Shown in pieces: positions 1-13,229 of a DNA stretch of 13,229 nt. A model generated the notes under the pieces. It was not told where the DNA came from and made no database searches. It worked only from the letters and a program-made list of their open reading frames with translations. The position numbers and the translations under genes were made by a program. Within the stretch, counting starts at the first letter, position 1. Each line of letters opens with the position of its first letter. The DNA comes from Sedimentisphaerales bacterium. Lineage in GTDB: Bacteria; Planctomycetota; Phycisphaerae; Sedimentisphaerales; SG8-4. Location: assembly GCA_016928975.1 (NCBI GenBank), contig JAFGJR010000057.1, forward strand, positions 1 through 13,229, given 5' to 3'.

Positions 1-1124
1 CGTTCTATCATCGGGCGGACTTCTTCGTCAGTTCCGGCTGGTACATAGACGAGGTGGAGTTGTGGCGAGGGGTGCCGGCGTTCACGAGCCCCATCTATCG
101 TTTCTGGTCACCGGTGAATAGCGTGCACTTCTATACGATCAGCGAGGCGGAACGCGATATGCTCATCCAGGACTGGCCGAGCGTCTGGACTTACGAGGGT
201 ATCGCCTATCAAGCGTTTGTTGATGGCGGCCAGGCGGGGACGGCGCCGATTTACCGGTTCTGGTCGGGGCATTCGCATTTCTACACGATCAGCGAAGCCG
301 AACGGGACATGCTGATTCAGGACTGGCCGAGCGTCTGGACCTATGAGGGGATCGCGTTCTATGCGTATCCCGAGGGCCAGCAGCCGGAGGGGAGCAAGCC
401 GGTCTATCGGTTCTGGAACGGCAGCCGGGTGTGTCACTTCTACACGATGAGCGAAACTGAACGAGACATGATCATCCGTGATTTCTCGCACGTCTTCAGC
501 TACGAGGGCGTTGCCTGGTACGCGGAGGCTCCACTGGACGGCGTCGCTTTGACGATGGACAACCAGGCGGGACTGTTGGATTCCCGGTCGGCGCAAGCCA
601 ACAGTGGTGAATCGCAGAGCGAACCGCTGCCGCGCCTGCCGGGCATGCGCCTTGTGGACCCCAACCCGGCCAACCTCACCGGGCAGGTCATCTACCTCGA
701 TTTCGACGGCGAGCAGAACGTCACCTACAATGGCCCAGTGACGGTCGGTCCGTTCGATGTCCCAGCTTTCCAGGCTACTGGCAGTTTGGCTGGACAAGAG
801 CAGATGATCATTAGTGGCGTCCTGGGACAATTGCAGCAGACCTTCGCTGACTGCGGCGTTACGTTCACTGCGGACAAGCCATCTGGTGGCGTCGTCTACT
901 CCAGCGTCTACGTCGGCGGTGATGATTCGACGTTTGCGCCGTACGGATTGTTCTTCGGGTTGGCGGAGCAGGTCGATGTCGGCAATCGCGCACGCGATGA
1001 TGATGCCCTGGTCTTCACCGATTGCCTTGGCCAATACATGCTTGACATGGACTCACTCACTGACAGACTCACCCGCATCATCGCTCACGAGGTGGGGCAT
1101 CTGCTTGGTTACGCTCATGCCTGA
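1..1124 (+). CDS. 3' part of a secreted protein: beta-sandwich tail, three DUF5648 repeats, metzincin-like zinc site (5' end outside window)
   Basis: The reading frame is open to the left edge (first full codon at 3), so the true start lies outside; the internal GTG at 54 is not a credible start. The first visible residues end in GWYIDEVEL, typical of the last strand of beta-sandwich domains attached to secreted bacterial proteases. Three DUF5648-type repeats follow, each with P-[IV]-YRFW, HFYT, E-RDM and YEG[IV]A. After a linker comes a domain starting near IYLDFDGEQNVTYNG and ending in HEVGHLLGYAH at 1086-1118, which is the metzincin zinc motif HExxHxxGxxH. The frame stops one residue later with two consecutive stops (TGA TAG), so no Met-turn follows. 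I recall this domain from large planctomycete surface proteins. It is probably a secreted or surface-bound metalloprotease or a relic of one; activity is doubtful because the domain looks cut short. A link to the neighbouring secretion genes is possible but not shown. Confidence 0.82.
   Translation, partial: FYHRADFFVSSGWYIDEVELWRGVPAFTSPIYRFWSPVNSVHFYTISEAERDMLIQDWPSVWTYEGIAYQAFVDGGQAGTAPIYRFWSGHSHFYTISEAERDMLIQDWPSVWTYEGIAFYAYPEGQQPEGSKPVYRFWNGSRVCHFYTMSETERDMIIRDFSHVFSYEGVAWYAEAPLDGVALTMDNQAGLLDSRSAQANSGESQSEPLPRLPGMRLVDPNPANLTGQVIYLDFDGEQNVTYNGPVTVGPFDVPAFQATGSLAGQEQMIISGVLGQLQQTFADCGVTFTADKPSGGVVYSSVYVGGDDSTFAPYGLFFGLAEQVDVGNRARDDDALVFTDCLGQYMLDMDSLTDRLTRIIAHEVGHLLGYAHA
90..533 (+). repeat. 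Three tandem DUF5648-type coding repeats
   Basis: The units start at about 90, 246 and 399, with periods of 156 and 153 nt. Units 1 and 2 are identical over a 27-residue core (HFYTIS to YEGIA), while the DNA of that core differs at 12 codons, all synonymous. Unit 3 is more diverged (HFYTMSETERDM, SYEGVAW). DUF5648 repeats are found in secreted bacterial proteins and their ligand is unknown to me. Confidence 0.85.
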
Positions 1125-1275
1125 TAGTCACCACGTGAGCGTCTCTTCTCCTATCCCGCCTAATCAAAAACGCGTGGCTATGCCGATATTCCCCGTATGA
1201 GACAAGAAAGCGGGCCCGATGGCCGTGCTCGGCGGGTGGCCGCTCTTGGCCCGGATTCTGACAGTATGGTTCTGC

Positions 1276-1280
1276 GGAGG
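1276..1280 (+). promoter_or_regulatory. Ribosome binding site fixing the adaptor start
   Basis: GGAGG lies 7 nt before the ATG at 1288. The longer frame from the ATG at 1219 has no comparable site and would add a GC-rich stretch before the signal peptide, so 1288 is preferred. Confidence 0.75.
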
Positions 1281-1287
1281 TTTCGGC

Positions 1288-2142
1288 ATGACTGCGGATA
1301 GAGGAATGCTTCTCAGGATTGTCCTTGTCGGACTTCTCTCCGTCTCCCACGCAGCCTACTCCCAGACCAGTGTCCGCGCCATCACGCGGCCGAGCGTGGA
1401 TATCACGCTCTCCTTTGTCCAGCCAGGGCGAATTGCCCAGGTTCTGTTCAAAGAAGGTGATGTGGTGAAGGCAGGGGATGTCCTGGTCCGCCAGGATGAT
1501 GCCGCCGAGCAGGTTCAGCTTGCCCAGCTTAAGGCTCAGAGCGAAGACTTGACGCAGGTGAAGGCCAGCGAGGCGTCGTTGGCACAGAAGAAGGTCGATC
1601 TGGAGAAGCTGCAAAAAGCCGCCGCCAGCAACGCCGCGACCTTCCTTGAGGTCGAGCATGCCAAGCTCGATGTGACGATTGCCCAATTATCTTTGGAGCT
1701 TGCCGAGTTCGAGCACGAGCAAGCAGGTCGGAAGTACGAGGAATACAGGATCCGCGTGGAGAACATGCGACTGAAGAGTCCTATCGACGGTCGAATCGAG
1801 GAGATCGGTGTCGAGGTGGGCGAATCGGCCAACGCCCTGGCCGATGTGGTCCGGGTGGTGCAGATCGATCCGTTGTGGATCGATGCGCCTGTGCCGTGGG
1901 CGGAAGCGACTGGTCTGAAAGCCGGGCGGACCGCACGAGTACAGTTCAGTGGGTCAGGCGTTGCAGAGGCGGGTCTAGAGGCTGCCCTTGCACCCGCCAC
2001 TGCAGAGGGACGCGTGATCTTCGTTGCCGCAGTGGCCGATGCTGCCAGCGGAACCTTGCGGGTGCGAATCGAGGTGCCGAACAAGACGGCCAGACCGGCG
2101 GGCGAGCATGTCTTGATCACGTTCGCAGATGAAGGACGATAG
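1288..2142 (+). CDS. Periplasmic adaptor protein (HlyD / RND membrane-fusion family)
   Basis: The protein has 284 residues. An N-terminal signal sequence (MTADRGMLLRIVLVGLLSV, likely cleaved around HAAYS-Q) indicates export to the periplasm. A split lipoyl domain is clear: first half about 38-70 (GRIAQVLFKEGDVVKAGDVL) and second half about 160-190 (LKSPIDGRIEEIGVEVGE). Between them lies an Ala/Glu/Lys/Leu-rich alpha-hairpin (about 71-158). A beta-barrel and a short membrane-proximal part follow (LWIDAPVPWAEATGLKAG, SGTLRVRIEVPN). Such adaptors bridge an inner-membrane pump to a TolC-type channel. The TolC-like gene follows after 17 nt, so the two probably form an operon. No pump gene is next to it, which is odd for this family; the partner may be the HlyD-fused membrane proteins on the opposite strand or a pump elsewhere. 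The 163 nt upstream (1125-1287) contain no gene and no promoter I trust. Confidence 0.9.
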   Translation: MTADRGMLLRIVLVGLLSVSHAAYSQTSVRAITRPSVDITLSFVQPGRIAQVLFKEGDVVKAGDVLVRQDDAAEQVQLAQLKAQSEDLTQVKASEASLAQKKVDLEKLQKAAASNAATFLEVEHAKLDVTIAQLSLELAEFEHEQAGRKYEEYRIRVENMRLKSPIDGRIEEIGVEVGESANALADVVRVVQIDPLWIDAPVPWAEATGLKAGRTARVQFSGSGVAEAGLEAALAPATAEGRVIFVAAVADAASGTLRVRIEVPNKTARPAGEHVLITFADEGR

Positions 2143-2159
2143 CTAACGGGAATCCACTT

Positions 2160-3959
2160 ATGTCATTGCGGCCCGGGGCCGGAGATCTCCGAACGCTTCT
2201 ACCTGTTATTCTGGTAGGCTTGCTGATCGCAGGCGGGGGATGCGTGTCCGATGAAGTGGGCGACAGATCGAAGGTGAGCACCTACCAGAGACGGCTGGCG
2301 GGTGGCGGGCCGCAACTGAGACGGAATGAGCAGGAAATGCCCTCGGCACAGCCTCTGGGATTGCTCCAGCCGGTCGAGACTCGGCAGGAACCGATCCCAA
2401 GTCTGCAGGTGACCGTGGACCCCAACACCGGGCAGAAGAACGCGCCACTGACGATCGAGCAGGCCATTGTGCGTGCGCTGGCCAACAGCCCGGAGATTCG
2501 CATCGTCAGCTTTGACCCGGAGATTGCCCGCCAGGAGGTCGCCAAAGCGGCGGGGGACTTCGATCCGGTGAGCTTCGGCCGGTACAACTACGGCAGGCAG
2601 GACAACCCGGTCAACAGCTTCTTCGATCCGGGAGAATCCGAGACACGGCTGTACGAGGTTGGGGTGAAACAACGGACGATTCTTGGCTCAGAGTGGTCGG
2701 CCAGCTACGGCCTGAGCCGCGTCTGGGATGACCTGTCATTGCACACGCTATCGACTCGGTATGAGCCGATGGTCGTGTTCGAGCTTCGCCAACCTCTGCT
2801 GCGCGACGCCGGCACCCAGGTGAACCTGGCGGGGGTGGATATCGCCAAGCTCAACTACGAGGCGGCGATGCTGGGCTTTCGGGAGAAGGCGGAGGCGGTC
2901 TGTGCGGCTGTGATTACCGCGTATTGGCGCCTGGTTCAGGCTCGCCGCGACATCCAGATCCAGCGCGAGCTGGTGAGCCAGACGAATGAGACGTTGAAGA
3001 AGGTCGAGGGGCGTCGTGACATCGATGCCACGGATGTCCAGACGGAACAGGTGGCTGCCTACGCCAGGTCGCGGGAGGCGATCCTGCTGGAATTGGAGAA
3101 GCAGGCGATCGACGCACAGGATGCGCTGACGCGTCTGATTTCTGATCCGCACGTGAACCTGGGCAGTGAGTTGACGATCCTGCCAACGAGCGAGCCGCAG
3201 GTGATCCGCGAGTTGCCCCAGTCCGTGATTCTGGCGGACCGCACGTTGGCGGTGGCGATGCAGCGAAATCCTGGGATCCAGCGGGCGCAGCTTGGGATTC
3301 AGGTGGCCCAGATCAACCTTGACGTGGCGAAGAACCAGGAGATGCCCCGGCTGGACCTGGTGGGCTCGGCGAGAGCTCGCAGCCTGGCGGAGGATCTCTA
3401 CGATGCGCAGGACCAGATCGACAACGGTCAGTATACCAGCTACGCCATCGGATTGACCCTGGAGTACCCTCTGGGCAACCGCAGCCGACGTGCCGAGTCG
3501 CTGCGCAGACAGTGGGAGCGGAGGAAGGCGACGGCTGTTTACCACAATGCGGCCGACCAAGTGGCAGTGCAGGTCCGGGAAAAGGCTCGCAGGGTGCAGA
3601 CGAGCTTCGAACAGCTCAAGGCGCAAAAGGAGGCTGTGCAGGCAGCCCGGATGCATCTGCAGACGCTGGGGGAATCGGAGCCGATCCGAGAGAAGCTCAC
3701 GCCGGAATTCCTATTGGTGAAATTGCAGGGCCAGGAGACCTATGCTCAAGCCCAGCGGGCGGAGACAAGCGCCCTTGCGGAGCTCAACATTGCATTGGCG
3801 GAGCTTGCCCAGGCGGCGGGGACAATCCTCGATCTGCGGACGGTGGAGGCGTCGCTTTCTTGCGTGGTGGAGCGTCTGCCTGAAGTGGAGTCGCCCGAAC
3901 AGGAGCCCGACCAGCAAACGCGGCGAGAGCCACCCTGGGAAATGTCGCCCTCATTCTAA
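2160..3959 (+). CDS. TolC-like outer-membrane efflux protein, probable lipoprotein
   Basis: The protein has 599 residues. The N-terminus has a hydrophobic segment ending in LLIAGGGC, with Cys28 a candidate for lipidation; Gly at -3 makes the lipobox atypical. A linker of about 65 residues precedes two outer-membrane efflux protein (OEP) repeats. The first begins near LTIEQAIVRALANSPEI and the second near LADRTLAVAMQRNPGIQRA. Each has long amphipathic helices and beta segments (YEVGVKQ, YAIGLTLEYPLGN) as in the TolC alpha/beta barrel. The family forms a trimeric channel across the outer membrane that docks with periplasmic adaptors. It is translated just downstream of the adaptor gene (17-nt gap, weak Shine-Dalgarno), which fits an adaptor-channel pair. 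Its TAA stop overlaps the stop of the convergent SecA-like gene by 4 nt, so the two transcripts must run into each other. The substrate cannot be told from sequence. Confidence 0.92.
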   Translation: MSLRPGAGDLRTLLPVILVGLLIAGGGCVSDEVGDRSKVSTYQRRLAGGGPQLRRNEQEMPSAQPLGLLQPVETRQEPIPSLQVTVDPNTGQKNAPLTIEQAIVRALANSPEIRIVSFDPEIARQEVAKAAGDFDPVSFGRYNYGRQDNPVNSFFDPGESETRLYEVGVKQRTILGSEWSASYGLSRVWDDLSLHTLSTRYEPMVVFELRQPLLRDAGTQVNLAGVDIAKLNYEAAMLGFREKAEAVCAAVITAYWRLVQARRDIQIQRELVSQTNETLKKVEGRRDIDATDVQTEQVAAYARSREAILLELEKQAIDAQDALTRLISDPHVNLGSELTILPTSEPQVIRELPQSVILADRTLAVAMQRNPGIQRAQLGIQVAQINLDVAKNQEMPRLDLVGSARARSLAEDLYDAQDQIDNGQYTSYAIGLTLEYPLGNRSRRAESLRRQWERRKATAVYHNAADQVAVQVREKARRVQTSFEQLKAQKEAVQAARMHLQTLGESEPIREKLTPEFLLVKLQGQETYAQAQRAETSALAELNIALAELAQAAGTILDLRTVEASLSCVVERLPEVESPEQEPDQQTRREPPWEMSPSF

Positions 3960-5941
3960 CCCCTGCCGGCGAAGCCGAGGGTTTCGTCGAGCCAGTGGTC
4001 GGCTCGCATGACCGCCTTTCGCTGGCTCAGGGCGAAGCGGTCGGCCCGAGACTGAGCCAGGCGAAACGTTGCCTTTGTCAAGGCAGAGGAGACGTCATCA
4101 GATGTCTGAACGTGGCGGCGCTTGAGATATCCGACCAGGTGTGTCGCATAGCGGCAGACGAACTCATCTTCCAGGGACACGATCGCCTGGGCACTTCCAG
4201 GATCGCCCTGGCGAGCGCATCGGCCGAAGAGCTGACGGTCGATCCGGCCGGACTCATTCCGCTCGGCGGCGATCACGTGCAGGCCGCCGACCTCGGCCAC
4301 ACCTCGGCCCAGTTTGATATCCGTGCCTCGGCCGGCCATGTTCGTCGCGACGGTGATCTTGCCCGGCTGGCCGGCCTCTGCGACGATCTGGGCTTCCTCA
4401 CGATGACGGACGGCATTGAGCACCTGATGCTCCAGGCCCTGCACGGCGAGCAGGCCGCTGAGATGCTCGCTGTCGCGCACGCTCCGCGTTCCCACCAGGA
4501 CCGGTCTGCCGCTCTCGTGGACCTTTTGAATCTCCTCCACAAGGCGTCGCCATTTGCCTTCCTTGCTCGATAGGACAATATCGGCCAGCACCGTTCGAAC
4601 GCAGGGCCGGTTCGTCGGGATTACCACAACCGGCAGGTTGTAGATCTGCCAGAATTCGTTGGCCGCCTCCTGGGCCGTTCCGGTCATTCCCGCCAAGTGC
4701 TTGTATAGCCGAAAGAATCTCTGAAAGCTGATTCGGGCGTATGTGTCCTTCCAGGCAGTGACCTCCAGCCCTTCTTTGGCTTCGATCGCCTGGTGCAGGC
4801 CGTCTCGCCAAGACCGGTCCGGCATGATCCGCCCGGTGAAATCGTCCACGATCACGACTTTGCCGTCGCGGACGATATAGTGCTTGTCCTTGATGTACAA
4901 CTGCCTGGCGACCAGCGCCCTGGTCATGATCTCCTCGCGGCGGCGGGCACCTCTCCAAATCCCCGGCCACGAGGCTGTCATCTCCTCCAGACGCCGACAG
5001 CCCTCGCCGGTCAGCTCCACCTCGCGGTAGCGAACGTCGATGGTGTAGTCCCTGGGGTGGCAGAGGCTCTCCGCCAGCTTGACAGCCTGGCAGAAGGCTT
5101 GCGTCTGCTCGGGGTTGGGGGCCGGGCCGGAGATGATCAAAGGAGTCACCGCTTCGTCGACCAGGACGGAATCGGCTTCATCGACAAGGGCACAATTCAA
5201 GCCTCGCTGCACGAGGCGATCCAGGGGAGACCTTCCACCCGAGGCAATCTTGCTGAGCAGAGCAGACCTGGATCCTCGTAGTCGTCCCAACAGCAATCGA
5301 TCCCGCAGGAAATCCGCCGTCACTTCCTTGTTTGTGCAGTAGGTGATGTCCGCGGCGTAGGCATTCCTGCGATCCTCGGCGGCCATGCCCTGCTCGACAT
5401 AGGCTACGCTGAGTCCACAGAACTGGTAGATCCGGCCCATCCATTCGGCGTCTCGCCTGGCCAGATAGTCGTTGACGGTGATGATGTGGCAGCCTCGACC
5501 TCGCCAGCCGGCAACCGTCGCGGGCATCGTGGCGGCGAGCGTCTTGCCCTCGCCTGTGGCCATCTCGGCGATACACCCTTTGGACAACGCCAGTGCCCCG
5601 GCGACCTGAACGGGAAAAGGCTTCTCGCCGATCTGGCGCGCCGCCGCTTCCCGCACGATGGCAAATGCCCGATCCAGGTCCGGCGCCTTGTCACGACCGA
5701 GGCGAAAGACGCGGCTTAGGTCGGCGGCCTGCTCTCGCAGTTTCTGGTCCGCGATGACGGAGAACCGCTTCTCCAAGTCCACGATTCTCTGGGCGCGGCG
5801 AAGAAACCGCTCCCGTCGCGGAATACGCCGAGTCAACAGGCCCACCCCTGCATGCCAGAGGGCGTCGGCCCCCTGCGGCAGGGGCTTGTCCTGCAAGTCC
5901 TGATCGAGTGGCTGCCAGCTTGCGTGGGAGAAGGTCGCCAT
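3956..5941 (-). CDS. Short SecA-like preprotein translocase ATPase
   Basis: The protein has 661 residues. The DEAD-type SecA motor is complete: Walker A MATGEGKT (127-134), TVNDYLARRDAEWM (155-168), Walker B ALVDEADSVL (251-260), DDFTGRIMPDRSW (366-378), GMTGTA (418-423), TNMAGRGTDIKLG (533-545) and the arginine-finger motif GRCARQGDPGS (573-583). A preprotein cross-linking region is recognisable between the two halves of the first nucleotide-binding domain (about 265-400). After LEDEF (590-594) only about 67 residues remain, so most of the helical scaffold/wing region and the zinc-binding tail of housekeeping SecA (commonly 830-950 residues) are missing. It is therefore likely an accessory, SecA2-like motor rather than the housekeeping secA. 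The ATG directly abuts the TGA of the M50 gene (TGAATG). AGGAGG lies 12 nt upstream, inside the last codons of that gene, so translation is probably coupled. It is the last gene of the minus-strand operon. Housekeeping SecA pushes unfolded proteins through SecYEG; the partner channel here is unknown. Confidence 0.92.
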   Translation of the reverse strand: MATFSHASWQPLDQDLQDKPLPQGADALWHAGVGLLTRRIPRRERFLRRAQRIVDLEKRFSVIADQKLREQAADLSRVFRLGRDKAPDLDRAFAIVREAAARQIGEKPFPVQVAGALALSKGCIAEMATGEGKTLAATMPATVAGWRGRGCHIITVNDYLARRDAEWMGRIYQFCGLSVAYVEQGMAAEDRRNAYAADITYCTNKEVTADFLRDRLLLGRLRGSRSALLSKIASGGRSPLDRLVQRGLNCALVDEADSVLVDEAVTPLIISGPAPNPEQTQAFCQAVKLAESLCHPRDYTIDVRYREVELTGEGCRRLEEMTASWPGIWRGARRREEIMTRALVARQLYIKDKHYIVRDGKVVIVDDFTGRIMPDRSWRDGLHQAIEAKEGLEVTAWKDTYARISFQRFFRLYKHLAGMTGTAQEAANEFWQIYNLPVVVIPTNRPCVRTVLADIVLSSKEGKWRRLVEEIQKVHESGRPVLVGTRSVRDSEHLSGLLAVQGLEHQVLNAVRHREEAQIVAEAGQPGKITVATNMAGRGTDIKLGRGVAEVGGLHVIAAERNESGRIDRQLFGRCARQGDPGSAQAIVSLEDEFVCRYATHLVGYLKRRHVQTSDDVSSALTKATFRLAQSRADRFALSQRKAVMRADHWLDETLGFAGRG

Positions 5942-8128
5942 TCAGATGTGGAACCTCCTCTGGAACAACCGTCTGGCGGACTGGTACCACTGGATCAACA
6001 AAGGCTTGCGTGTCATGGTGAGCCGGGCCACGACTCGCTGGCCGGTCAGGAGGCTGGATGCATCTGGCGCGGCGGGTTTGATGCGAATCTCGAAGAACTT
6101 CTCTGCCGCGGTTGTATCCTGCGGGGCTCGTGAACGTGTAGGCATGTCGCCGCCAGCGGCGTAGCCAAGGGCTTCAGAAGGCAACTCGTCGCTGCCGGCA
6201 GGGAAGATCTTCTCGATGCGGCCCGTGAGAGTCCGGTCGGGCCGGCCCTTGATGCGGATCTCGACCTCTTGACTGGCCTGCTCGAAGATCATGGCGGCGA
6301 CATCCTGACCGGCGGTCACGCGAAGGATCAGATCGTTGAGGCTGCCGACGAATCCGATCGTGTCGCCTCGCCTGAGGTATGTGCCTTTGCTGTATTCAAT
6401 CTCGGGGGCTATCCAGATCCCTTTGAAGGGCGACCTCAAGTTCAGCTTGTCCAGTTGCCACTGGACGCGGGCAAGGCTTTCGTCGAGGGCGTCGATCTGC
6501 TCTGCAATGGTCTGCGCCGCGGCAGTCTCCTGGATCTCGGCCAGACGATAGCGTGCCTCCAGGCCGCGTCGTTCCGCCAGTAGGATTGCCTTCTGCGCCT
6601 CCAGTTCGCGGTTGATGGCCTGCACCAGCGGCGGGCCGTCCGGAGAAGCTGCCGACTGCGAGGGCAGGAAGTCGGTGACAAAGCCGTCGCTCTCGGCGTG
6701 GATCAGGGCGAGTTGTGCAGGCTCGACGATTCCTTCGATTCGGTAGTGGTCCGGCATACGAACCAGGCCGATGAGCATGAATGTTGCGCACAGCCCGCCT
6801 GCCGTGGAGGCAACCGCCCGGCGGCGATTGCGAGCCAGTTCCGGACCTGTCGCCAGGTACCTGATGAACTGGACCAGCGGGGCGATGAGCCAGCCACCAA
6901 CGGCGGCTATCGCAAAAAGCGGAACGAGGATGAACAGTTGCTCAGGCAAGCGGCGATTGAGGAACAGGAGAATGCGGATGCTGATGTAGACGCGATAGAC
7001 GGTCGAGGTCGTGCCGTAAAGGACAAACCAGACCGTTTCACCGGGACCACAGGCCGGGTTCTGAAGCTTCTTCACGGACCAGACGTATCGCTTGACGAGA
7101 TAGTAGATGTAGTTTCTGGACCGCTGAGCGAGGTTTGGGATCTCAATCAGATCGCAAAGGACGTAGTACGCGTCGAATCGCAGCAGGGGGTTGCCGTTGA
7201 ACAAGACCGTCGAGACACTGGCCACGAAGATGACGTTGTAGGCGATGATGTGGAGGGTCCCCGTGGAGGTCTGGGCCCAGACGATGGCGGCGACGGAGGC
7301 GGCCGCCAATTCCGCCATGACTCCCGCCATGCCGACAATGGCCCGGTGCCATTTGCTGCGAAAGGCCCAGGCACTGGAGGCATCGACATATGGTAGGGGG
7401 AGAAGCACGAGGAACATCACACCCATGCTGTGCACGTCGCCGCTGCTGCGGTTGAGCCGGCCGAACCGCTTGCAGGCGAAGGCATGGCTGAACTCATGGC
7501 AGACCTTGACGAGCACAAAGCTCAGGTACAACAGGATCAGGTTACCCGGGTCCAGGACATCGGCGCTCTGGGCAAACAATTCACCGGAGTTGGCGATGAC
7601 GAAGTACAGTCCCGCCGCCAACAGGACGACCCACAAACAGAAGCCCGGCCAACTGAAGAGGGAGCCGAAAACACCGACCCAACGGTTGAGAAAGGCATCG
7701 GGGTCGATCAAGGGGACTCGCAGGAAGAGCAGGTTCGCCAGATAGTTCAGGACCTGCCGTCTGACTCGCCGGCGATAGCGGTTGAGAAGCCCCTGTGCGT
7801 CGGGAGGCATGTCCACGTGCAACAGGTTCATCGCGTACAGTTGCCCAAGCAGTTGGATCACTTCCCCCTGAGTCGGGGCGCCATCGCCAAGCTGCTCATT
7901 GCATAGCTGCCAGACCTGTGCCACGGTTCGTCGGCCGTCGAGGGCCCCGGCAAAGCGATAGGCGTTCTCGGCAATGCGAGCGTATTCACTGTTGGCCGGG
8001 TTCTCCAGGACGTACCACAGTTGCCCGCGGAAATATTGCCGGCGGATGTTCACGTCGGACAATAGTCGCGGCCGCAGATCCGCAACGCGATACCATGCCT
8101 CGTGAAATGTCGGGCGGTCTACCGCCAT
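5942..8128 (-). CDS. PqqD-like / M50 site-2-type zinc metalloprotease / HlyD adaptor fusion
   Basis: The protein has 728 residues. The N-terminal 30-105 region (RGQLWYVLENP, ALDGRRTVAQVWQL, LGQLYAMNLLHV) resembles the PqqD winged-helix fold, which in peptide-modification systems binds leader peptides. A polytopic membrane part (about 158-455) carries the M50 zinc site HEFSH at 211-215 and the second motif NGNPLLRFD at 311-319, where Asp319 is the expected third ligand. Both are intact, so the peptidase may be active in the membrane. From about 460 to 715 there is a HlyD-type periplasmic arm: first lipoyl half (IEGIVEPAQLALIHAESDGFV), a hairpin (505-560), second half (LNLRSPFKGIWIAPEIEYSKG) and a beta-barrel. 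I recall annotations such as 'putative peptide zinc metalloprotease' for this architecture. The start at 8128 is preceded by GGGAGAAG just after the stop of the upstream gene (15-nt gap). The likely role is membrane-embedded processing and/or export of a protein substrate; substrate and cleavage site are unknown. Confidence 0.92.
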   Translation of the reverse strand: MAVDRPTFHEAWYRVADLRPRLLSDVNIRRQYFRGQLWYVLENPANSEYARIAENAYRFAGALDGRRTVAQVWQLCNEQLGDGAPTQGEVIQLLGQLYAMNLLHVDMPPDAQGLLNRYRRRVRRQVLNYLANLLFLRVPLIDPDAFLNRWVGVFGSLFSWPGFCLWVVLLAAGLYFVIANSGELFAQSADVLDPGNLILLYLSFVLVKVCHEFSHAFACKRFGRLNRSSGDVHSMGVMFLVLLPLPYVDASSAWAFRSKWHRAIVGMAGVMAELAAASVAAIVWAQTSTGTLHIIAYNVIFVASVSTVLFNGNPLLRFDAYYVLCDLIEIPNLAQRSRNYIYYLVKRYVWSVKKLQNPACGPGETVWFVLYGTTSTVYRVYISIRILLFLNRRLPEQLFILVPLFAIAAVGGWLIAPLVQFIRYLATGPELARNRRRAVASTAGGLCATFMLIGLVRMPDHYRIEGIVEPAQLALIHAESDGFVTDFLPSQSAASPDGPPLVQAINRELEAQKAILLAERRGLEARYRLAEIQETAAAQTIAEQIDALDESLARVQWQLDKLNLRSPFKGIWIAPEIEYSKGTYLRRGDTIGFVGSLNDLILRVTAGQDVAAMIFEQASQEVEIRIKGRPDRTLTGRIEKIFPAGSDELPSEALGYAAGGDMPTRSRAPQDTTAAEKFFEIRIKPAAPDASSLLTGQRVVARLTMTRKPLLIQWYQSARRLFQRRFHI

Positions 8129-8143
8129 GTACGTGCTTCTCCC

Positions 8144-9994
8144 CTACAGCCACAGCTTCATCCGGATCCAGTTGACTACCTTCCTCGTCCAGATCCACGC
8201 ATAGTGGCGTTTCTCGATCGTGACTTTTGCCACGCCCTCCATGCCCGGCCGCATCCAGGGCCGGTTCTCTGACAGCTTGGCCCGCACCTTGAACACGTTG
8301 CGGTTGTTGACGACCTCCGCCGCCGGGTTGACACGCTCAACGACAAAGCGGATTCGATCTCCGGGATAGGTGGCGGTGGCCAGATAACCCTCCTGGCCCA
8401 CGGCGACATCCGACACTTCATCCTCCGAGACGTACAGTCCTGCTCTCAGAGAATCCAGCGGAGCGACTTCAAAGAGCACCTTGCCGGTCTCCACAGGAGC
8501 GCCGATCTGGCGCTTCAGATCCCCGGCCACCAGCGTTCCGGTGACCGGCGAGAGAATCCGTGCCTGGCCGATGCGGTAGCTCAACAAATCCATCTGGGCC
8601 TGCGCTTTGTCGGCGCCGGCCTGGGCGATTTGGGCCTCGGCGGTCTTGCCGTCCCGCATAGCAGCGTCCGACTGCTTGAGATAGCCGGCCTTCTCCGCCC
8701 TGGCGGAAGCCAATTGCAGGCGCAGTTCCGCCGTGTCCAGCTCCGCCAGAGCCGTCCGGCCCTCAACGATCGCGTCGCCGACCTCTACATCGACGTCCTT
8801 GATGAATCCATCAAACGGGGCCGCGATCTTGCATTGAGAGACCGCTTCAAAGACAAAGGGCGCCTTGACCTTGTACCAGCCTTTGGCGAAGACCAGGAAC
8901 AGCAGCAGGGCCAGGCCGCCGAGGATCGCCAGCTTGGTCCAGGTGTACTGGGCTCCCAGCACGACGGCAAGCCCACGGCGGGCGTTGGCGGCGATTCTTG
9001 CTCCGATCCAACGGTCGTAGTGGTATAGGTTCAGGAGTCGCGGAGCGCACAAATCGCACGCCAACCGGATGGTCTCGGCCTGGTCGTCCGTGAACGCCTG
9101 GGCGGCCACCCGCTCCAGCGTGACTACGGCCGCCGACCGGCCATCCTCTCGCAACGGCAGACTCATCAGCGCGTTCCGGCCATGATGGTCCGACAGCTCG
9201 CCGGCTGCTCGCGCGATGTAGGCGGCGTCGGCGGAAGGAGGGTAGATGACCTCACAATCCTGATCGAGACACTCCTCCATGGCCGCCTCGATGTCCTGCA
9301 CCAATCGCATCTTGCGGCTGAAGTGCCCGGTGTGGCTCATGGCTTTGACCTGGACGTAGCGGCCCTTGAGAAAGCCTACACTGACTCGCTCGCACTGCCA
9401 CTGGGACGCCATCTCGTTGCACAAAGCCATCGCCACGCCCCGAAAGCGGTTCTGGCGGTTGATCCCTGCGAGAACATCGAGCGCACTATGCAGCTTCAGC
9501 GGGGCTGTCTCTTGGCCGAGCCGGGACAGATGCTCGCCGGTCATGCCCACCAGGCCCACGGTAAGCTCCAGCAACTGCCGAGCCCCATCGAGAGCCATCT
9601 TGTCGGCCGTCTTGAGCAGGAGTGTCGTCACGAGTGGTCCCTGATCTGCGATTCGCAGGGGGACGACGACCACGTGGGTCTGAAGATCGCCGCCGACGGG
9701 TAAGGTCACGGCGACCGTGCTGGAGGACACCTGGTTGGCTGCCTCCGCTGACCGTCGCAGCCACGATGTCGGCTCCTGCTCCGGGCCGCCGGCCGGATGC
9801 ACGGCCACCAGTCGAAAGCCGCCACCGCCATCCAGTTGTAGTACCGCGCCTCCCCTGGCGCGACAGCACCGGCACTGGACAGCCAGAAGCTCCGCGAGAA
9901 ACGGGCCGAGCGCACCGGGGTCCCCGGCGGACCTCACTCCAGACGCAGAGGGTTCCTTTGCCTGCGCCGAGCCCTGAACACGGTCATGTTGCAT
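8144..9994 (-). CDS. Tandem GAF / transmembrane / HlyD adaptor fusion protein
   Basis: The protein has 616 residues from the ATG at 9994. Residues 30-155 look like a diverged GAF domain (GGAVLQLDGGGGFRLVAV, VVVVPLRIADQGP, LLELTVGLVG). Residues 167-322 form a clearer second GAF domain (FRGVAMALCNEMASQWQCER, NALMSLPLREDGRSAAVVTL). One membrane segment follows (about 353-371, TKLAILGGLALLLFLVFA). The periplasmic part is HlyD-like: lipoyl half (APFDGFIKDVDVEVGDAIVEG), a hairpin (425-500), second lipoyl half (ARILSPVTGTLVAGDL) and a barrel (LRAGLYVSEDEVSDVAVGQEG). It would link a cytoplasmic ligand or protein sensor to a periplasmic adaptor. The frame is open further upstream to 10204, but that would overlap the FHA gene and encodes Cys/Arg/Gly-rich nonsense; 9994 leaves a 44-nt gap. 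A GTG at 10003 is an alternative, and neither has a good ribosome binding site. A cysteine cluster (C41, C43, C44) is unusual. It sits between the FHA gene and the M50 fusion in one operon. Confidence 0.87.
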   Translation of the reverse strand: MQHDRVQGSAQAKEPSASGVRSAGDPGALGPFLAELLAVQCRCCRARGGAVLQLDGGGGFRLVAVHPAGGPEQEPTSWLRRSAEAANQVSSSTVAVTLPVGGDLQTHVVVVPLRIADQGPLVTTLLLKTADKMALDGARQLLELTVGLVGMTGEHLSRLGQETAPLKLHSALDVLAGINRQNRFRGVAMALCNEMASQWQCERVSVGFLKGRYVQVKAMSHTGHFSRKMRLVQDIEAAMEECLDQDCEVIYPPSADAAYIARAAGELSDHHGRNALMSLPLREDGRSAAVVTLERVAAQAFTDDQAETIRLACDLCAPRLLNLYHYDRWIGARIAANARRGLAVVLGAQYTWTKLAILGGLALLLFLVFAKGWYKVKAPFVFEAVSQCKIAAPFDGFIKDVDVEVGDAIVEGRTALAELDTAELRLQLASARAEKAGYLKQSDAAMRDGKTAEAQIAQAGADKAQAQMDLLSYRIGQARILSPVTGTLVAGDLKRQIGAPVETGKVLFEVAPLDSLRAGLYVSEDEVSDVAVGQEGYLATATYPGDRIRFVVERVNPAAEVVNNRNVFKVRAKLSENRPWMRPGMEGVAKVTIEKRHYAWIWTRKVVNWIRMKLWL

Positions 9995-10038
9995 ATGCCG
10001 CACCCATTCGCGAAAGAAGGCACGCACCCATTTGCATG

Positions 10039-10986
10039 TTACACACCCGGACGGCGCTGATTCCCGGCGACAGAGGCTGCTTCCTGTGCCACCGCCTGGA
10101 CGAAGGCGAATATCTCCTCCGGGCTTGGTGAAACCCGATCCTCGATAGGGACATCGACATAGAGGAGGTCCACAGCGTCTTGCCCCGAGTCGATGCGAGT
10201 GCACAGGATCGCTCGTGGGCTGTGCTCGTCGATCAACGAGATGGTGACCTGGGTATCACAGGAGAAAATGCTCTTGGTCATGAGCGGTCGTCCGTTCGCG
10301 CGAACCGCCTCCAGCAAGCGGTGGGAGACGCGGAGGCCCCGGTGAAAGGGGTCCATTCGATTGGCGGACGGGGCTTGTGTGTCCTCGCCCGTGCCGCCGA
10401 AGTGGCAGGCCACGATTTCAGGGATCTTCGGCATGGGCTGGTCCGCCGATGGAAACCGGAAGATGACAGCCGCGGTGGTCGAGCCTTGTGCCAGAGCTCG
10501 GCAAACCTCCACATATACGGCGTGCAGGTCGGTCAATTCCGACAAGCGTCCTCTCACCTGATTGAGCTTGCCGGGACAAGGCTGAGTCGTGCATTCTTCA
10601 ATCCGGGGCCGATCATAGAAGACCTCCGTGCCGAAGTCCTCGACGATGATCTTCGGGCATTGCAGCCCAGGCGTGACGACAGGGCGGTGTTCATGCCCTT
10701 CCCCCAGTAGCAGAGAGACGGGGCCAATCTGCACGACATCATCTGCCGTAAGGTCGCAGGAGTCGATGCGTTTGCCATTGACGAAGGTCCCATTGCTGCT
10801 GCCCAGGTCCTTGATCGTCCAATGACTGGAAGGCGCCCAGGATATCTCCGCGTGTCTGCGTGAAACGTCAGCTCGATCGATCACGACGTCACAGGTGGGA
10901 TTGCGTCCGATCACTGTGCCCTGCGGCTTCAGAGGGACCCGCCATGTCTCGCTGGGGCTGCACACCGTCAGCATTGTATCGGCCAT
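10039..10986 (-). CDS. FHA domain protein with C-terminal GAF-like domain
   Basis: The protein has 315 residues from the ATG at 10986. The N-terminal FHA domain (about 5-95) has all signature residues: GR (27-28), SRRH (42-45) and SSNGTFVNG (63-71). These bind phosphothreonine peptides, so the protein probably recruits or senses a phosphorylated partner. A linker (96-143) has several cysteines. The rest (about 144-308: VYVEVCRALAQGSTTAAVIF, RPLMTKSIF, RAILCTRIDSG, LLYVDVP, IFAFVQAVAQEAA) looks like a GAF domain, as seen in FHA-GAF proteins elsewhere. There is no signal peptide or membrane segment, so it should be cytoplasmic. It is the first gene of the minus-strand operon and thus a candidate regulator or assembly factor for the export proteins encoded after it. 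No Ser/Thr kinase is in the window. The start is set by AAGGAG 6 nt upstream; the ATG at 11001 overlaps that site. Confidence 0.92.
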   Translation of the reverse strand: MADTMLTVCSPSETWRVPLKPQGTVIGRNPTCDVVIDRADVSRRHAEISWAPSSHWTIKDLGSSNGTFVNGKRIDSCDLTADDVVQIGPVSLLLGEGHEHRPVVTPGLQCPKIIVEDFGTEVFYDRPRIEECTTQPCPGKLNQVRGRLSELTDLHAVYVEVCRALAQGSTTAAVIFRFPSADQPMPKIPEIVACHFGGTGEDTQAPSANRMDPFHRGLRVSHRLLEAVRANGRPLMTKSIFSCDTQVTISLIDEHSPRAILCTRIDSGQDAVDLLYVDVPIEDRVSPSPEEIFAFVQAVAQEAASVAGNQRRPGV

Positions 10987-10992
10987 GTTGAT

Positions 10993-10998
10993 CTCCTT
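10993..10998 (-). promoter_or_regulatory. Ribosome binding site fixing the FHA gene start
   Basis: AAGGAG on the minus strand lies 6 nt before the ATG at 10986. It rules out the upstream in-frame ATG at 11001 as the main start, because that codon sits on top of the site. Confidence 0.8.
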
Positions 10999-11052
10999 CA
11001 TCGCTCACATCAGCGCGCCGCGTTGCGGTCCCCGGCTGCCTGCTCAGCATAG

Positions 11053-11080
11053 AGTATCGACACAGGTTGCGCCATGTCAA
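11053..11080 (-). promoter_or_regulatory. Predicted sigma70-type promoter for the FHA-to-SecA operon
   Basis: On the minus strand, a perfect -35 box TTGACA (11080-11075) and GATACT (11058-11053, 4 of 6 matches to TATAAT) are separated by 16 nt. Transcription would start near 11046, giving a leader of about 60 nt before the FHA gene. Found by eye; no transcript data. Confidence 0.5.
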
Positions 11081-11177
11081 CCGTGGGCGTCGCATCGGTG
11101 GGGCGTATCGCCTCGTCTGGACCGTCGCTGCCAGAAGCAGGGGTCGCATATCGCGGCTTCCAGAACGGCTGGCGGCT

Positions 11178-11197
11178 CAAATTACCCAAATTGACCC
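11178..11197 (+). repeat. Short tandem direct repeat upstream of the TpsB-like gene promoter
   Basis: CAAATTACCC (11178-11187) is followed at once by CAAATTGACCC (11187-11197). The pair lies about 15 nt upstream of the predicted -35 box and just before a run of nine T (11201-11209). It could be an operator for a dimeric regulator, or chance. Confidence 0.35.
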
Positions 11198-11200
11198 AGG

Positions 11201-11239
11201 TTTTTTTTTGCTTGCGATTTGAATGCCACCGGGTATAAT
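11201..11239 (+). promoter_or_regulatory. Predicted sigma70-type promoter with upstream T-tract for the TpsB-like gene
   Basis: A perfect -10 box TATAAT (11234-11239) lies 16 nt after TTGCGA (11212-11217, 4 of 6 matches to TTGACA). A run of nine T (11201-11209) sits immediately upstream of the -35 box, where an AT-rich UP-type element would be. Transcription would start near 11246, giving a leader of about 112 nt in which I see no clear structure. Confidence 0.6.
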
Positions 11240-11344
11240 CTTGCCTTTCGCCTGAAGCGGCATCGTGGATGTTCTGTGGATCGCAGGTTCTTGCCGGCCA
11301 TTTGTAGCGCCCGTGTTGGATTGCGGAATTTCACCTTTGTGACC

Positions 11345-11349
11345 AGGAG
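11345..11349 (+). promoter_or_regulatory. Ribosome binding site fixing the TpsB-like gene start
   Basis: AGGAG lies 8 nt before the ATG at 11358. An in-frame GTG at 11349 overlaps this site and is therefore not the start. Confidence 0.8.
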
Positions 11350-11357
11350 TGGCACAA

Positions 11358-13226
11358 ATGGGACCAGAGCGAAAGGCGGCACCCTTCGTGCGAGTGTTGC
11401 GGATGATTCCGCTCCTGATTGTTCTGCCCCTGCTCGTTGTCTCAGTCCAGGGGCGGGAAGGCGCGGTCAGGGGACAACCTGAGGGGGGCTTGACTCAGGC
11501 AGGACATCCGCCGGCGGCCCCATCGCAGGCCCCGGATGCCACGGAGAAGTATCTTGTCCGAGCGATTGAAATCAGCGGCAACAGCCTCCTGTCGACGCAG
11601 GACCTGCTGAGGAATATCCCCGCCCTTTACCAATCCCAAGGCAAGGATGCCGGTGTTGCAGCCCAGACATACGACTTTGCAGTACTCAGGGATGTGATCC
11701 GTGCGCCGGGCGCGTTGCGGCAGGTGTCCGAGAGCGCGATCAAAGGGTTCACCGACTACCTGCTGTCGCGGTACAACGATCGGGGATACGCCGGGATCTA
11801 CGTCTATGTCAGCGCCAGCGCGATCATGGCAGGGGACTCGCCGGCCGGCGGCGTGCAACGCCTGGAGGGTGATATCCTGCCGATTCGGATCATCGAGGGA
11901 CGAGTGGCATCCATCGAGATGAGACACTACGATGCCGACGGCGACAGGAAGGACAAGGGCGTTCTGAAGGACTCCCTGGTTGCGGCGTGGTCGCCGGTGA
12001 AACCGGGGGAAGGGATCAAGAAGAAGTCATTGGACGACTTCGTGCGGCTGCTGAACGAGAACCCGGACCGGTATGTCCGGCACAGCGTGTCGCGCAGTGA
12101 CGAGCCGAACTCGCTCGACCTGATCTACGCGATTTACGAAGGGAACCCGTGGCATCCGTACATACAAGTCGACAACTCCGGGACCGACGAGCGGCAGTGG
12201 AGTCCTCGAATCGGGCTCATCAACACCGATCTGACCGGCCGTGACGACCGGCTGTCCCTCATGTATCAGGCCGATCTGGACGACCTCAGTGAGAACTACG
12301 CCGCATTCGGGAGCTATGGCATTCCCCTCCTCACACCGAAACTCCGTCTCAGCGCCTTCGGCGGATACAGTGAGTTTGACATTACACCACAGGCGACCGG
12401 CGGACTGGTGAACTTCCTCGGAGCCGGCTCGTTCTACGGGGCCAATCTCCGCTACAGTGTCGTGCAGGTGCGTGACTGGTTCTTTGACCTTACCAGCTCT
12501 TTTTCCTGGGAGAGGAGCAAGATTGATAGCGATCTGGGCCTGAGCTCCACCGTCAACATGCGTCTCTTGGGGCTGGGATTCGAGGTTCACCGGGGCAGCG
12601 CCATGTCCGACACATCCCTGTTGTTTGACGCCCTGCACAATGTCGGCGGCTCGGACCTGGATGATTTCGAGGAAGCCCGGACCGGCGCGGACCCGGACTT
12701 GGTCAAGTATTTCCTTTCGCTGAGCCACAGGCAGTACCTGGACAAGGCTAAGCTCAACCACATGGGGGGCAGTTTCCGGACCATTCTGACGAGCGACCGC
12801 CTGGTGCCGGCGAAGATGACGACCTTCGGGGGATTGTATTCCGTGAGAGGGTATCCCGAAGATGCTCTCGTCGCCGATGGCGGCATCCTGGCTTCCTTGG
12901 AGTACCGTCGGTGTCTCATCCGGGACCTCGGCGCAGGGAAACGTGCCAGGAGTGACACGAACAAAAAGACGTGGCCGGTCGATGTCTCTCTCCTGGCGTT
13001 CACGGACTACGGACAGGCGAGGATCGAAGATCCGCAGCCGGGCGAGTTGAAGACCCAGGACTTGTGGGGCATCGGGCTTGGAACGCTGATCACGGTCGGC
13101 AGCAAGTTCGAAGCGCGCGCCTACTATGGCTGGGCCTTGCATGAGATTGTCCGTCCAGGCGACGATCGCATCCTGGCCGATGAAGGGGACGGCGCATGGA
13201 ACTTCAGCTTCTTGCTTCGCTGGTAG
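11358..13226 (+). CDS. TpsB-like outer-membrane transporter (ShlB/FhaC/HecB family, Omp85 superfamily)
   Basis: The protein has 622 residues. It has an N-terminal signal or anchor segment (about 11-30, VRVLRMIPLLIVLPLLVVSV) and a Pro/Gly/Ala-rich linker (31-62). Two POTRA-like domains follow: about 64-155 (YLVRAIEISGNSLLSTQDLL, SRYNDRGYAGIYVYV) and about 172-262 (ILPIRIIEGRVASIEMRHY, LDLIYAIYEGNPW). The remainder (about 265-622) is an alternating-residue beta-barrel. The Omp85/TpsB loop motif appears as VRGY at 496-499, followed by an acidic, Gly-rich segment and LASLEYR. The last strand ends in FSFLLRW, so the terminal aromatic is Trp rather than the more usual Phe. Family members translocate large exoproteins (TpsA) across the outer membrane. 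No TpsA-like gene is visible, but the window ends 3 nt after the stop, where a partner could begin. The gene is transcribed divergently from the FHA operon, suggesting joint use or control. A BamA/TamA-like assembly role is less likely given only two POTRA domains. Confidence 0.88.
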   Translation: MGPERKAAPFVRVLRMIPLLIVLPLLVVSVQGREGAVRGQPEGGLTQAGHPPAAPSQAPDATEKYLVRAIEISGNSLLSTQDLLRNIPALYQSQGKDAGVAAQTYDFAVLRDVIRAPGALRQVSESAIKGFTDYLLSRYNDRGYAGIYVYVSASAIMAGDSPAGGVQRLEGDILPIRIIEGRVASIEMRHYDADGDRKDKGVLKDSLVAAWSPVKPGEGIKKKSLDDFVRLLNENPDRYVRHSVSRSDEPNSLDLIYAIYEGNPWHPYIQVDNSGTDERQWSPRIGLINTDLTGRDDRLSLMYQADLDDLSENYAAFGSYGIPLLTPKLRLSAFGGYSEFDITPQATGGLVNFLGAGSFYGANLRYSVVQVRDWFFDLTSSFSWERSKIDSDLGLSSTVNMRLLGLGFEVHRGSAMSDTSLLFDALHNVGGSDLDDFEEARTGADPDLVKYFLSLSHRQYLDKAKLNHMGGSFRTILTSDRLVPAKMTTFGGLYSVRGYPEDALVADGGILASLEYRRCLIRDLGAGKRARSDTNKKTWPVDVSLLAFTDYGQARIEDPQPGELKTQDLWGIGLGTLITVGSKFEARAYYGWALHEIVRPGDDRILADEGDGAWNFSFLLRW

Positions 13227-13229
13227 GCA

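Follow-up and report, generated by a model that had tools for sequence, protein, structure and literature searches.

A SecA-linked, ABC-free module as a candidate exporter of LEPR-XLL-tagged giant proteins

A stretch of 13,229 nucleotides (nt) from a Sedimentisphaerales bacterium (Planctomycetota; assembly GCA_016928975.1, contig JAFGJR010000057.1, positions 1-13,229 of the forward strand), referred to here as the window, holds eight genes according to its open reading frames (ORFs) and to scans with Pfam and NCBIfam models. Four of them follow one another on the minus strand and encode a short SecA of 661 amino acids (aa; 3956..5941), a 728-aa protein that joins a PqqD-like domain, an M50 metalloprotease, and a HlyD arm (M50-HlyD, 5942..8128), a 616-aa GAF-HlyD adaptor with a membrane span (8144..9994), and an FHA protein (10039..11001, or from 10986). 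The gaps between them are 0, 15, and 44 nt, as an earlier reading made from the letters alone (the sequence-only reading) had described; that reading also noted that no ABC pump accompanies the HlyD proteins, and no ABC transporter was found among the eight scanned genes. The plus strand carries genes for an RND-type HlyD periplasmic adaptor (HlyD1, 1219..2142) and a TolC-family outer-membrane channel (2160..3959, convergent with the SecA gene), both recognized by domain scans. The evidence described below makes it quite probable that this module is a dedicated, trans-envelope exporter, free of ABC proteins and powered by SecA, for proteins bearing an LExRxLLSAD (LEPR-XLL) tag.

The short SecA matches the Pfam models SecA_DEAD (1e-99), SecA_PP_bind, and P-loop families, and contains the two motor halves together with the preprotein-binding domain. 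Its alignment with Bacillus subtilis SecA covers residues 3-606 of the latter (6-606 of chain 3jv2_A) and ends at 603-606, and all 20 aligned diverse short SecAs, of 645-676 aa, end within five alignment columns. The part of SecA past residue 606 is what we take to be the helical wing domain (HWD), the two-helix finger, and the C-terminal linker; the two-helix finger of SecA inserts into SecY. Judged by alignment, the window protein lacks all three and does not have the makeup of a housekeeping SecA. The TGEGKT and DEAD motifs are retained in the aligned short SecAs, save for variants such as TGEGKS in locus L047. The structural model of the short SecA (mean pLDDT 84) has as its top match among 50 listed the SecY-engaged SecA 6itc, with a TM-score of 0.79. 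This likeness, the strong SecA homology, the presence of the preprotein-binding domain, and the lack of any pore protein other than M50-HlyD in the window would suit a route in which the short SecA feeds SecYEG and the HlyD, TolC, and M50 proteins act afterwards, in outer-membrane passage and leader removal. Such a route is nevertheless unlikely, as the region holding the finger that enters SecY is missing and the 20 members all end together.

A long SecA is present besides the short one in 15 of 16 relatives' genomes, with only a short one seen in genome G013, and a SecA tree of 49 rows separates 31 short from 18 long sequences by a single branch (support 98/95). The window-type SecA is thus an accessory, second SecA in relatives, and the concern in the sequence-only reading that it might prove to be the sole secA is not borne out there. 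Three other short SecAs, of 620-654 aa (G067, locus L102; G003, L175; G137, L105), lie closer in the tree to the long SecAs than the bulk of the short ones does, and accompany mid-scoring M50-HlyD proteins (422-546 bits), possibly as a third type of machine.

The M50-HlyD protein falls under the Pfam cut-offs for both M50 (1e-3) and PqqD (0.09), and NF041824, a model for the daptide intramembrane metalloprotease, aligns with residues 24-415 (1e-42) and likewise stays under its equivalog cut-off. The protein has the motifs HEFSH and NPLLRFD, and an alignment of 41 rows, three of them from loci without SecA (L092, L096, and L099), shows H211, E212, H215, N311, and D319 unchanged in all 41. As in M50 site-2 proteases, an HExxH motif and a downstream Asp ligand lie in a modelled membrane bundle (mean pLDDT 84), and the M50 part is a predicted intramembrane metalloprotease. 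A sequence search of the PDB with M50-HlyD gave no match, and all 50 listed Foldseek matches of the model are adaptors (MexA, MacA, AcrA, and the like) that cover the HlyD half only and carry no information on the PqqD-M50 half. Plasmid relatives are annotated as 'PqqD family protein', 'PqqD family peptide modification chaperone', or 'site-2 protease family protein'. The M50 part resembles NF041824 and YydH/LiaK, which would fit a machine for small peptide cargo resembling ribosomally synthesized and post-translationally modified peptides (RiPPs), the LEPR link then reflecting a shared lifestyle; with LEPR adjacency far over expectation and tags that match machine types, both set out below, this is very improbable. 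A distant M50-HlyD relative, 33% identical over one third of the query, occurs on E. coli and Citrobacter plasmids (H36-H40). A SapC family gene lies between the M50-HlyD and SecA genes on a Pseudosulfitobacter plasmid (L273) and adjoins the giant gene on an Alisedimentitalea plasmid (L275).

The third protein of the module has a HlyD_3 match (2e-15) and GAF matches under the Pfam cut-offs (best 7e-5). Its start was set at the ATG at 9994, as the mechanical ORF reaching 10204 would overlap the FHA gene.

The locus was surveyed in the best 80 of 147 relatives, one genome per species, whose record titles name Planctomycetota, Verrucomicrobia, Kiritimatiellota, Lentisphaeria, Nitrospira, Nitrospinaceae, Desulfobacterales, other Deltaproteobacteria, Gemmatimonadetes, Elusimicrobia, Chitinispirillaceae, Burkholderiales, and Gammaproteobacteria. 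M50-HlyD is followed by a SecA gene less than 1 kb away in 74 of the 80 loci and preceded by a GAF-HlyD gene at a like distance in 68, with both in 63. Four of the six loci without SecA end less than 400 nt from the M50 gene; L026 and L066 do not. The order SecA/M50-HlyD/GAF-HlyD is therefore conserved well beyond chance and over many phyla, in line with the system proposed by the sequence-only reading and contrary to its alternative of homologues lying mostly apart. Single-sequence searches, which give lower bounds, found relatives of HlyD1 in at least 52 loci and of TolC in at least 24. A DUF3467-like protein of ∼100 aa, lacking in the window, is encoded in 23 of the 80 loci (L001-L080); its gene adjoins that of GAF-HlyD and often sits between it and a giant gene (L268, L269, L270, L272, and L274), and the protein is likely a further component of the machine.

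The gene association itself is already known. Kamneva, Poudel, and Ward described in 2015 a secondary SecA_DEAD locus related to type I secretion systems (T1SS), guessed that it works much as a T1SS does, and described its wider biological role as "completely unknown" (PMC4452313). Their locus resembles the present one in its secondary SecA_DEAD, Peptidase_M50-HlyD, GAF-HlyD, extra HlyD, and sometimes OEP/TolC genes, in having no ABC gene, and in overlapping phyla, and the present module has the features that define it, namely a SecA_DEAD protein besides the housekeeping SecA (in relatives) with M50-HlyD and GAF-HlyD genes adjoining. It differs in that no substrate is named and no sister type without SecA is described in the available portions of that article, in the text of which neither LEPR nor PqqD occurs. 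In the literature searched, the phrase 'secondary SecA_DEAD' turned up in one other paper, solely among its references, and LEPR is absent from that paper. Of the sequence-only reading's export machine of unnamed type, the ABC-free module thus stands, and the novelty of the association does not.

A candidate substrate class emerges from the surroundings of the machine. In nine of the 80 loci an ORF within reach, in some cases cut at the locus end, carries LEPRxLLx near its N-terminus, and the LEPR-XLL model NF012209 scores above its cut-off on all nine. Machine and tag were counted in genomes of four phyla, with LEPR matches accepted at E<=0.02 in Pseudomonadota and 0.05 elsewhere. Among 199 Planctomycetota genomes, M50-HlyD occurs in 46, LEPR in 20, and both in 19, so that M50-HlyD is present in 19/20 LEPR-positive vs 27/179 LEPR-negative genomes. 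The corresponding figures are 13, 17, and 7 of 198 genomes in Desulfobacterota (7/17 vs 6/181), 81, 54, and 50 of 259 in Pseudomonadota (50/54 vs 31/205), and 42, 22, and 17 of 194 in Verrucomicrobiota (17/22 vs 25/172). Fisher tests, uncorrected for kinship, give p values of 4e-13 (Planctomycetota), 1e-5 (Desulfobacterota), 4e-27 (Pseudomonadota), and 3e-9 (Verrucomicrobiota). One of 14 control genomes, that of Deinobacterium chartae, has a LEPR match at E<=0.05, and none has one at 0.02.

The counts were also restricted to SecA-linked M50-HlyD proteins, here termed class 1 (∼640 bits or more; three partial Pseudomonadota matches of 489-515 bits that lack the N-terminus, in G445, G472, and G576, were not by themselves scored as class 1). 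LEPR is found in 56 of 62 class-1 genomes, comprising 9/14 Planctomycetota, 3/3 Desulfobacterota, 31/31 Pseudomonadota, and 13/14 Verrucomicrobiota. A short SecA is present in 16/20 LEPR-positive vs 14/179 LEPR-negative Planctomycetota genomes, sorted by open-frame length among the matches listed (30 short; G037, G074, and G149 omitted as ambiguous), and LEPR occurs in 42 of 50 locus genomes searched, drawn from the 80. Some genomes hold ∼30 LEPR matches (32 in G687, 31 in G006), as might be expected of a general address tag.

Tag and machine are also often neighbors. Among LEPR matches that could be placed on a contig shared with M50-HlyD (in Pseudomonadota, positions of the latter come from the matches listed), 51 of 75 fall within 10 kb of it, the 75 including the match of G803, which is 246 kb away. 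For contigs of at least ∼1 Mb the figure is 16 of 37 vs 0.24 expected at random, rounded genome sizes standing in for contig spans in G722, G844, G795, and G803. In eight places (G302, G425, G417, G007, G743, G749, G795, and G770), tag and class-1 M50-HlyD share a strand and the tag is 1.9-2.7 kb downstream, a spacing that leaves room for SecA, which is seen there in G007 and G425; in many other places the giant gene precedes the module. Genome G425 has four pairs of class-1 protein and giant, one on each of four contigs. Giant open frames reach 15,080 aa (G367) and 18,984 aa (G795) next to the machine, and 19,427 aa (G472) and 20,466 aa (G719) where the contig has no machine. Many tagged proteins are giant and repeat-rich, and are presumably located at the surface.

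Plasmids repeat the arrangement. Thirteen plasmid records cover most of the M50-HlyD query, and in six of eight examined a tagged giant gene lies upstream of the cluster, namely in Ensifer adhaerens (a 9,023-aa ORF), Mesorhizobium ciceri, Methylosinus, Pontibrevibacter, Pseudosulfitobacter, and Thalassospira. Their tags begin with LEPR, MEPR, or IEPR and continue as xLLSAD or xLLNAD, and in four of the six a DUF3467 gene stands between giant and cluster. The Alisedimentitalea plasmid has a giant gene without the motif at its annotated start, and the Pseudohalocynthiibacter plasmid has no annotated giant gene in the stretch examined.

The LEPR-XLL tag bears little likeness to a typical signal peptide. 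Of 60 N-termini fetched, 55 were analyzed, leaving aside L120, L128, L130, L158, and L160, which show no motif by the pattern used; in 54 of the 55, no 12-residue stretch ahead of the motif has a mean hydropathy above 1.6, and in 47 the 40 residues ahead of it carry a net positive charge. The dearth of signal-peptide-like stretches speaks further against delivery through SecYEG. The substrate tag probably consists of LExRxLLSAD preceded by a stretch that is mostly basic, with the related LExRxLLA of PF07595 in planctomycetes.

Lower-scoring M50-HlyD proteins (∼260-345 bits) form a sister type in Pseudomonadota and Desulfobacterota. Ten of its loci (L092-L101) have no SecA gene, with a shorter GAF-HlyD-like gene in nine, a second adaptor in eight, and a TolC-profile match in two, and of 16 genomes with the sister type only, 14 have a long SecA alone (882-991 aa), G580 a short SecA-type match, and G560 no SecA match. 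Giants of the sister type bear LEPRxLFDGAA-like tags, with Asp at motif residue 8 in 17 of 17, whereas class-1 giants on the machine's own contig have Ser (20) or Asn (1) at that residue in 21 of 21, after exclusion of three class-1 N-termini in which no motif was recovered. In class-1 genomes, 11 tagged proteins encoded away from the machine have Ser in nine cases and Asp in two. This pairing of tag with machine type is the strongest sign, on the sequences compared, of direct recognition.

The sister type also bears on a reading in which the giants arrive by other means and PqqD-M50-HlyD is a processing or anchoring station, cutting the tag or holding the protein in TolC as retention modules do. 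Loci that keep a like tag without SecA or an obvious neighboring ATPase (10 examined), together with catalytic M50 motifs invariant across the alignment, would suit such a station. Yet co-inheritance of a SecA-family ATPase with M50-HlyD (74/80 loci) is hard to explain on those terms, and ABC-type patterns, judged by pattern only, were seen near the module in just two of 20 loci (L090, ∼7.5 kb; L102, ∼3 kb); this reading is distinctly improbable.

For a dedicated exporter, the following mechanism can be proposed. The PqqD-like domain of M50-HlyD would read the tag at the inner membrane, the M50 metalloprotease may cut it, and the short SecA would supply ATP-driven movement. The conduit would consist of the M50 membrane part, the HlyD arms of M50-HlyD, GAF-HlyD, and the RND-type adaptor, and TolC, with the GAF part in a regulatory role. 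Export, tag recognition, cleavage, and the motor function of SecA are what we infer from gene linkage, co-occurrence, conserved catalytic residues, and the matching of tag to machine type. The wider proposal is a separate ABC-free pathway of Gram-negative bacteria, in which a finger-less SecA drives giants with frames of up to ∼20,000 residues through a protease-adaptor-TolC conduit, a PqqD-like domain reads a hydrophilic N-terminal tag, and at least two types exist, with SecA (LLSAD) and without it (FDGAA); the chances that it holds in full appear evenly balanced.

Several observations weigh against a dedicated exporter. Only 4 of 16 LEPR matches in Planctomycetota fall within 10 kb of the machine, and all three in G111 and eight in G168 lie more than 0.9 Mb from it. 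Just nine of the 14 SecA-type genomes of this phylum have a LEPR match at E<=0.05, and none occurs in G001 (L039), the genome whose M50-HlyD, of those in all 80 loci, comes closest to that of the window (73%). Conversely, LEPR-positive genomes without an M50-HlyD match number one in Planctomycetota, 10 in Desulfobacterota, four in Pseudomonadota, and five in Verrucomicrobiota; of the 10, G296 has a short SecA (667-aa frame) and G349 a fragment of one at a contig edge. The sister type adjoins LEPR giants without SecA in the 10 loci examined, and the Thalassospira plasmid has a SAD-type tag yet no adjacent SecA, so that SecA cannot be a requirement for all tagged proteins. The two Asp residues among 11 non-adjacent tagged proteins of SecA-type genomes break the pairing of tag and machine, which common descent of linked genes would also yield, and the Fisher tests make no correction for kinship. 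A scan of the first 100 residues for LExRxLL[ASGND]-type patterns, over 400 kb per planctomycete genome, found 0/326 and 2/315 genes in G085 and G197 (machine present, LEPR absent) and 0/320 and 0/325 in G104 and G138, for which neither M50-HlyD nor a short SecA is listed, few matches throughout and counts too small to compare. Finally, we know of no export experiment.

Compared with known pathways, a T1SS has HlyD adaptors, TolC, and large repeat or RTX substrates in common with the dedicated exporter proposed here and differs in its ABC transporter, which the module lacks, and in the candidate signal being N-terminal in the module. A plain T1SS was rejected, there being no ABC gene in the window. 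T1SS C-terminal target models (NCBIfam, E<=0.01) gave no match in six giant C-termini, one of which has RTX-type repeats. In Gram-positive bacteria, the accessory Sec system (SecA2/SecY2) uses a second SecA for large surface adhesins, a feature that it would share with the module. The module differs in its HlyD, M50, and TolC partners and in a SecA that is missing its C-terminal part and scores far under the NCBIfam SecA2 cut-offs (575, 510, 495, and 451 bits vs 1085, 930, 725, and 1100), and is hence not classed as SecA2.

A planctomycete cell-surface motif, PF07595, was reportedly described by Studholme et al. in 2004. It is cited as an LExRxLLA/S core that extracellular proteins carry at the N-terminus, with no export machine assigned to it in the available portions of that source (PMC8567305). 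The LEPR-XLL domain NF012209 is the candidate tag itself, and the literature passages on it at hand tie it to no secretion machine; LEPR is likewise absent from PMC8277102 over its first 300,000 characters. No link between LEPR-XLL and a secretion machine was found in a literature search whose reach ended short of preprints and most subscription papers, and as far as that literature shows, the likely exporter role for LEPR-XLL giants is new.

The window itself offers a candidate substrate. The gene at 3..1124 (plus strand) encodes a DUF5648 and metzincin protein, cut at its 5′ end, whose tag is not visible as its N-terminus lies outside the window. Among 119 relatives listed (the best of 499), 32 share the metzincin part, and 18 of these carry LEPR or LEDR within the first 110 residues; of the 14 without a tag, seven lack an initial Met. 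Relatives through other parts only, chiefly DUF5648, have LEPR or LEDR in 0 of 87 cases. One relative, P0219, is named LEPR-XLL by NCBI and is 50% identical to the window protein over 187 residues, and two were compared with PF07595, P0208 (LEDRRLLSAD) scoring above the cut-off and P0190 (LEDRRVLSAS) just below. By family resemblance, with members often tagged, the metzincin gene is a candidate substrate gene. Its frame ends directly past HExxHxxGxxH at 1124, tagged relatives such as P0219 extending further, and the gene may be interrupted or short.

The remaining genes of the window may be local neighbors of the module. The FHA gene encodes a protein with a clear FHA domain (Pfam, 1e-22) and no Pfam match to GAF at E<=0.1, so that only the FHA half of the FHA-GAF architecture in the sequence-only reading holds, and a gene for a TpsB-type protein, identified by domain scans, lies at 11349..13226 on the plus strand. 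Relatives of either were found in 0 of the 80 loci at E<1e-4. Both were rejected as machine parts, and with them the phosphothreonine-sensor subunit; of the two outer-membrane exits once suggested, TolC is retained and TpsB is dropped.

A dedicated exporter would join two orphans, a tag of surface proteins known since 2004, to which the texts available assign no machine, and a SecA/HlyD/M50 locus described in 2015 without a substrate. If true, it would explain the export of some of the largest proteins in several bacterial phyla, and its SecA would drive protein movement while lacking the part that normally inserts into SecY.

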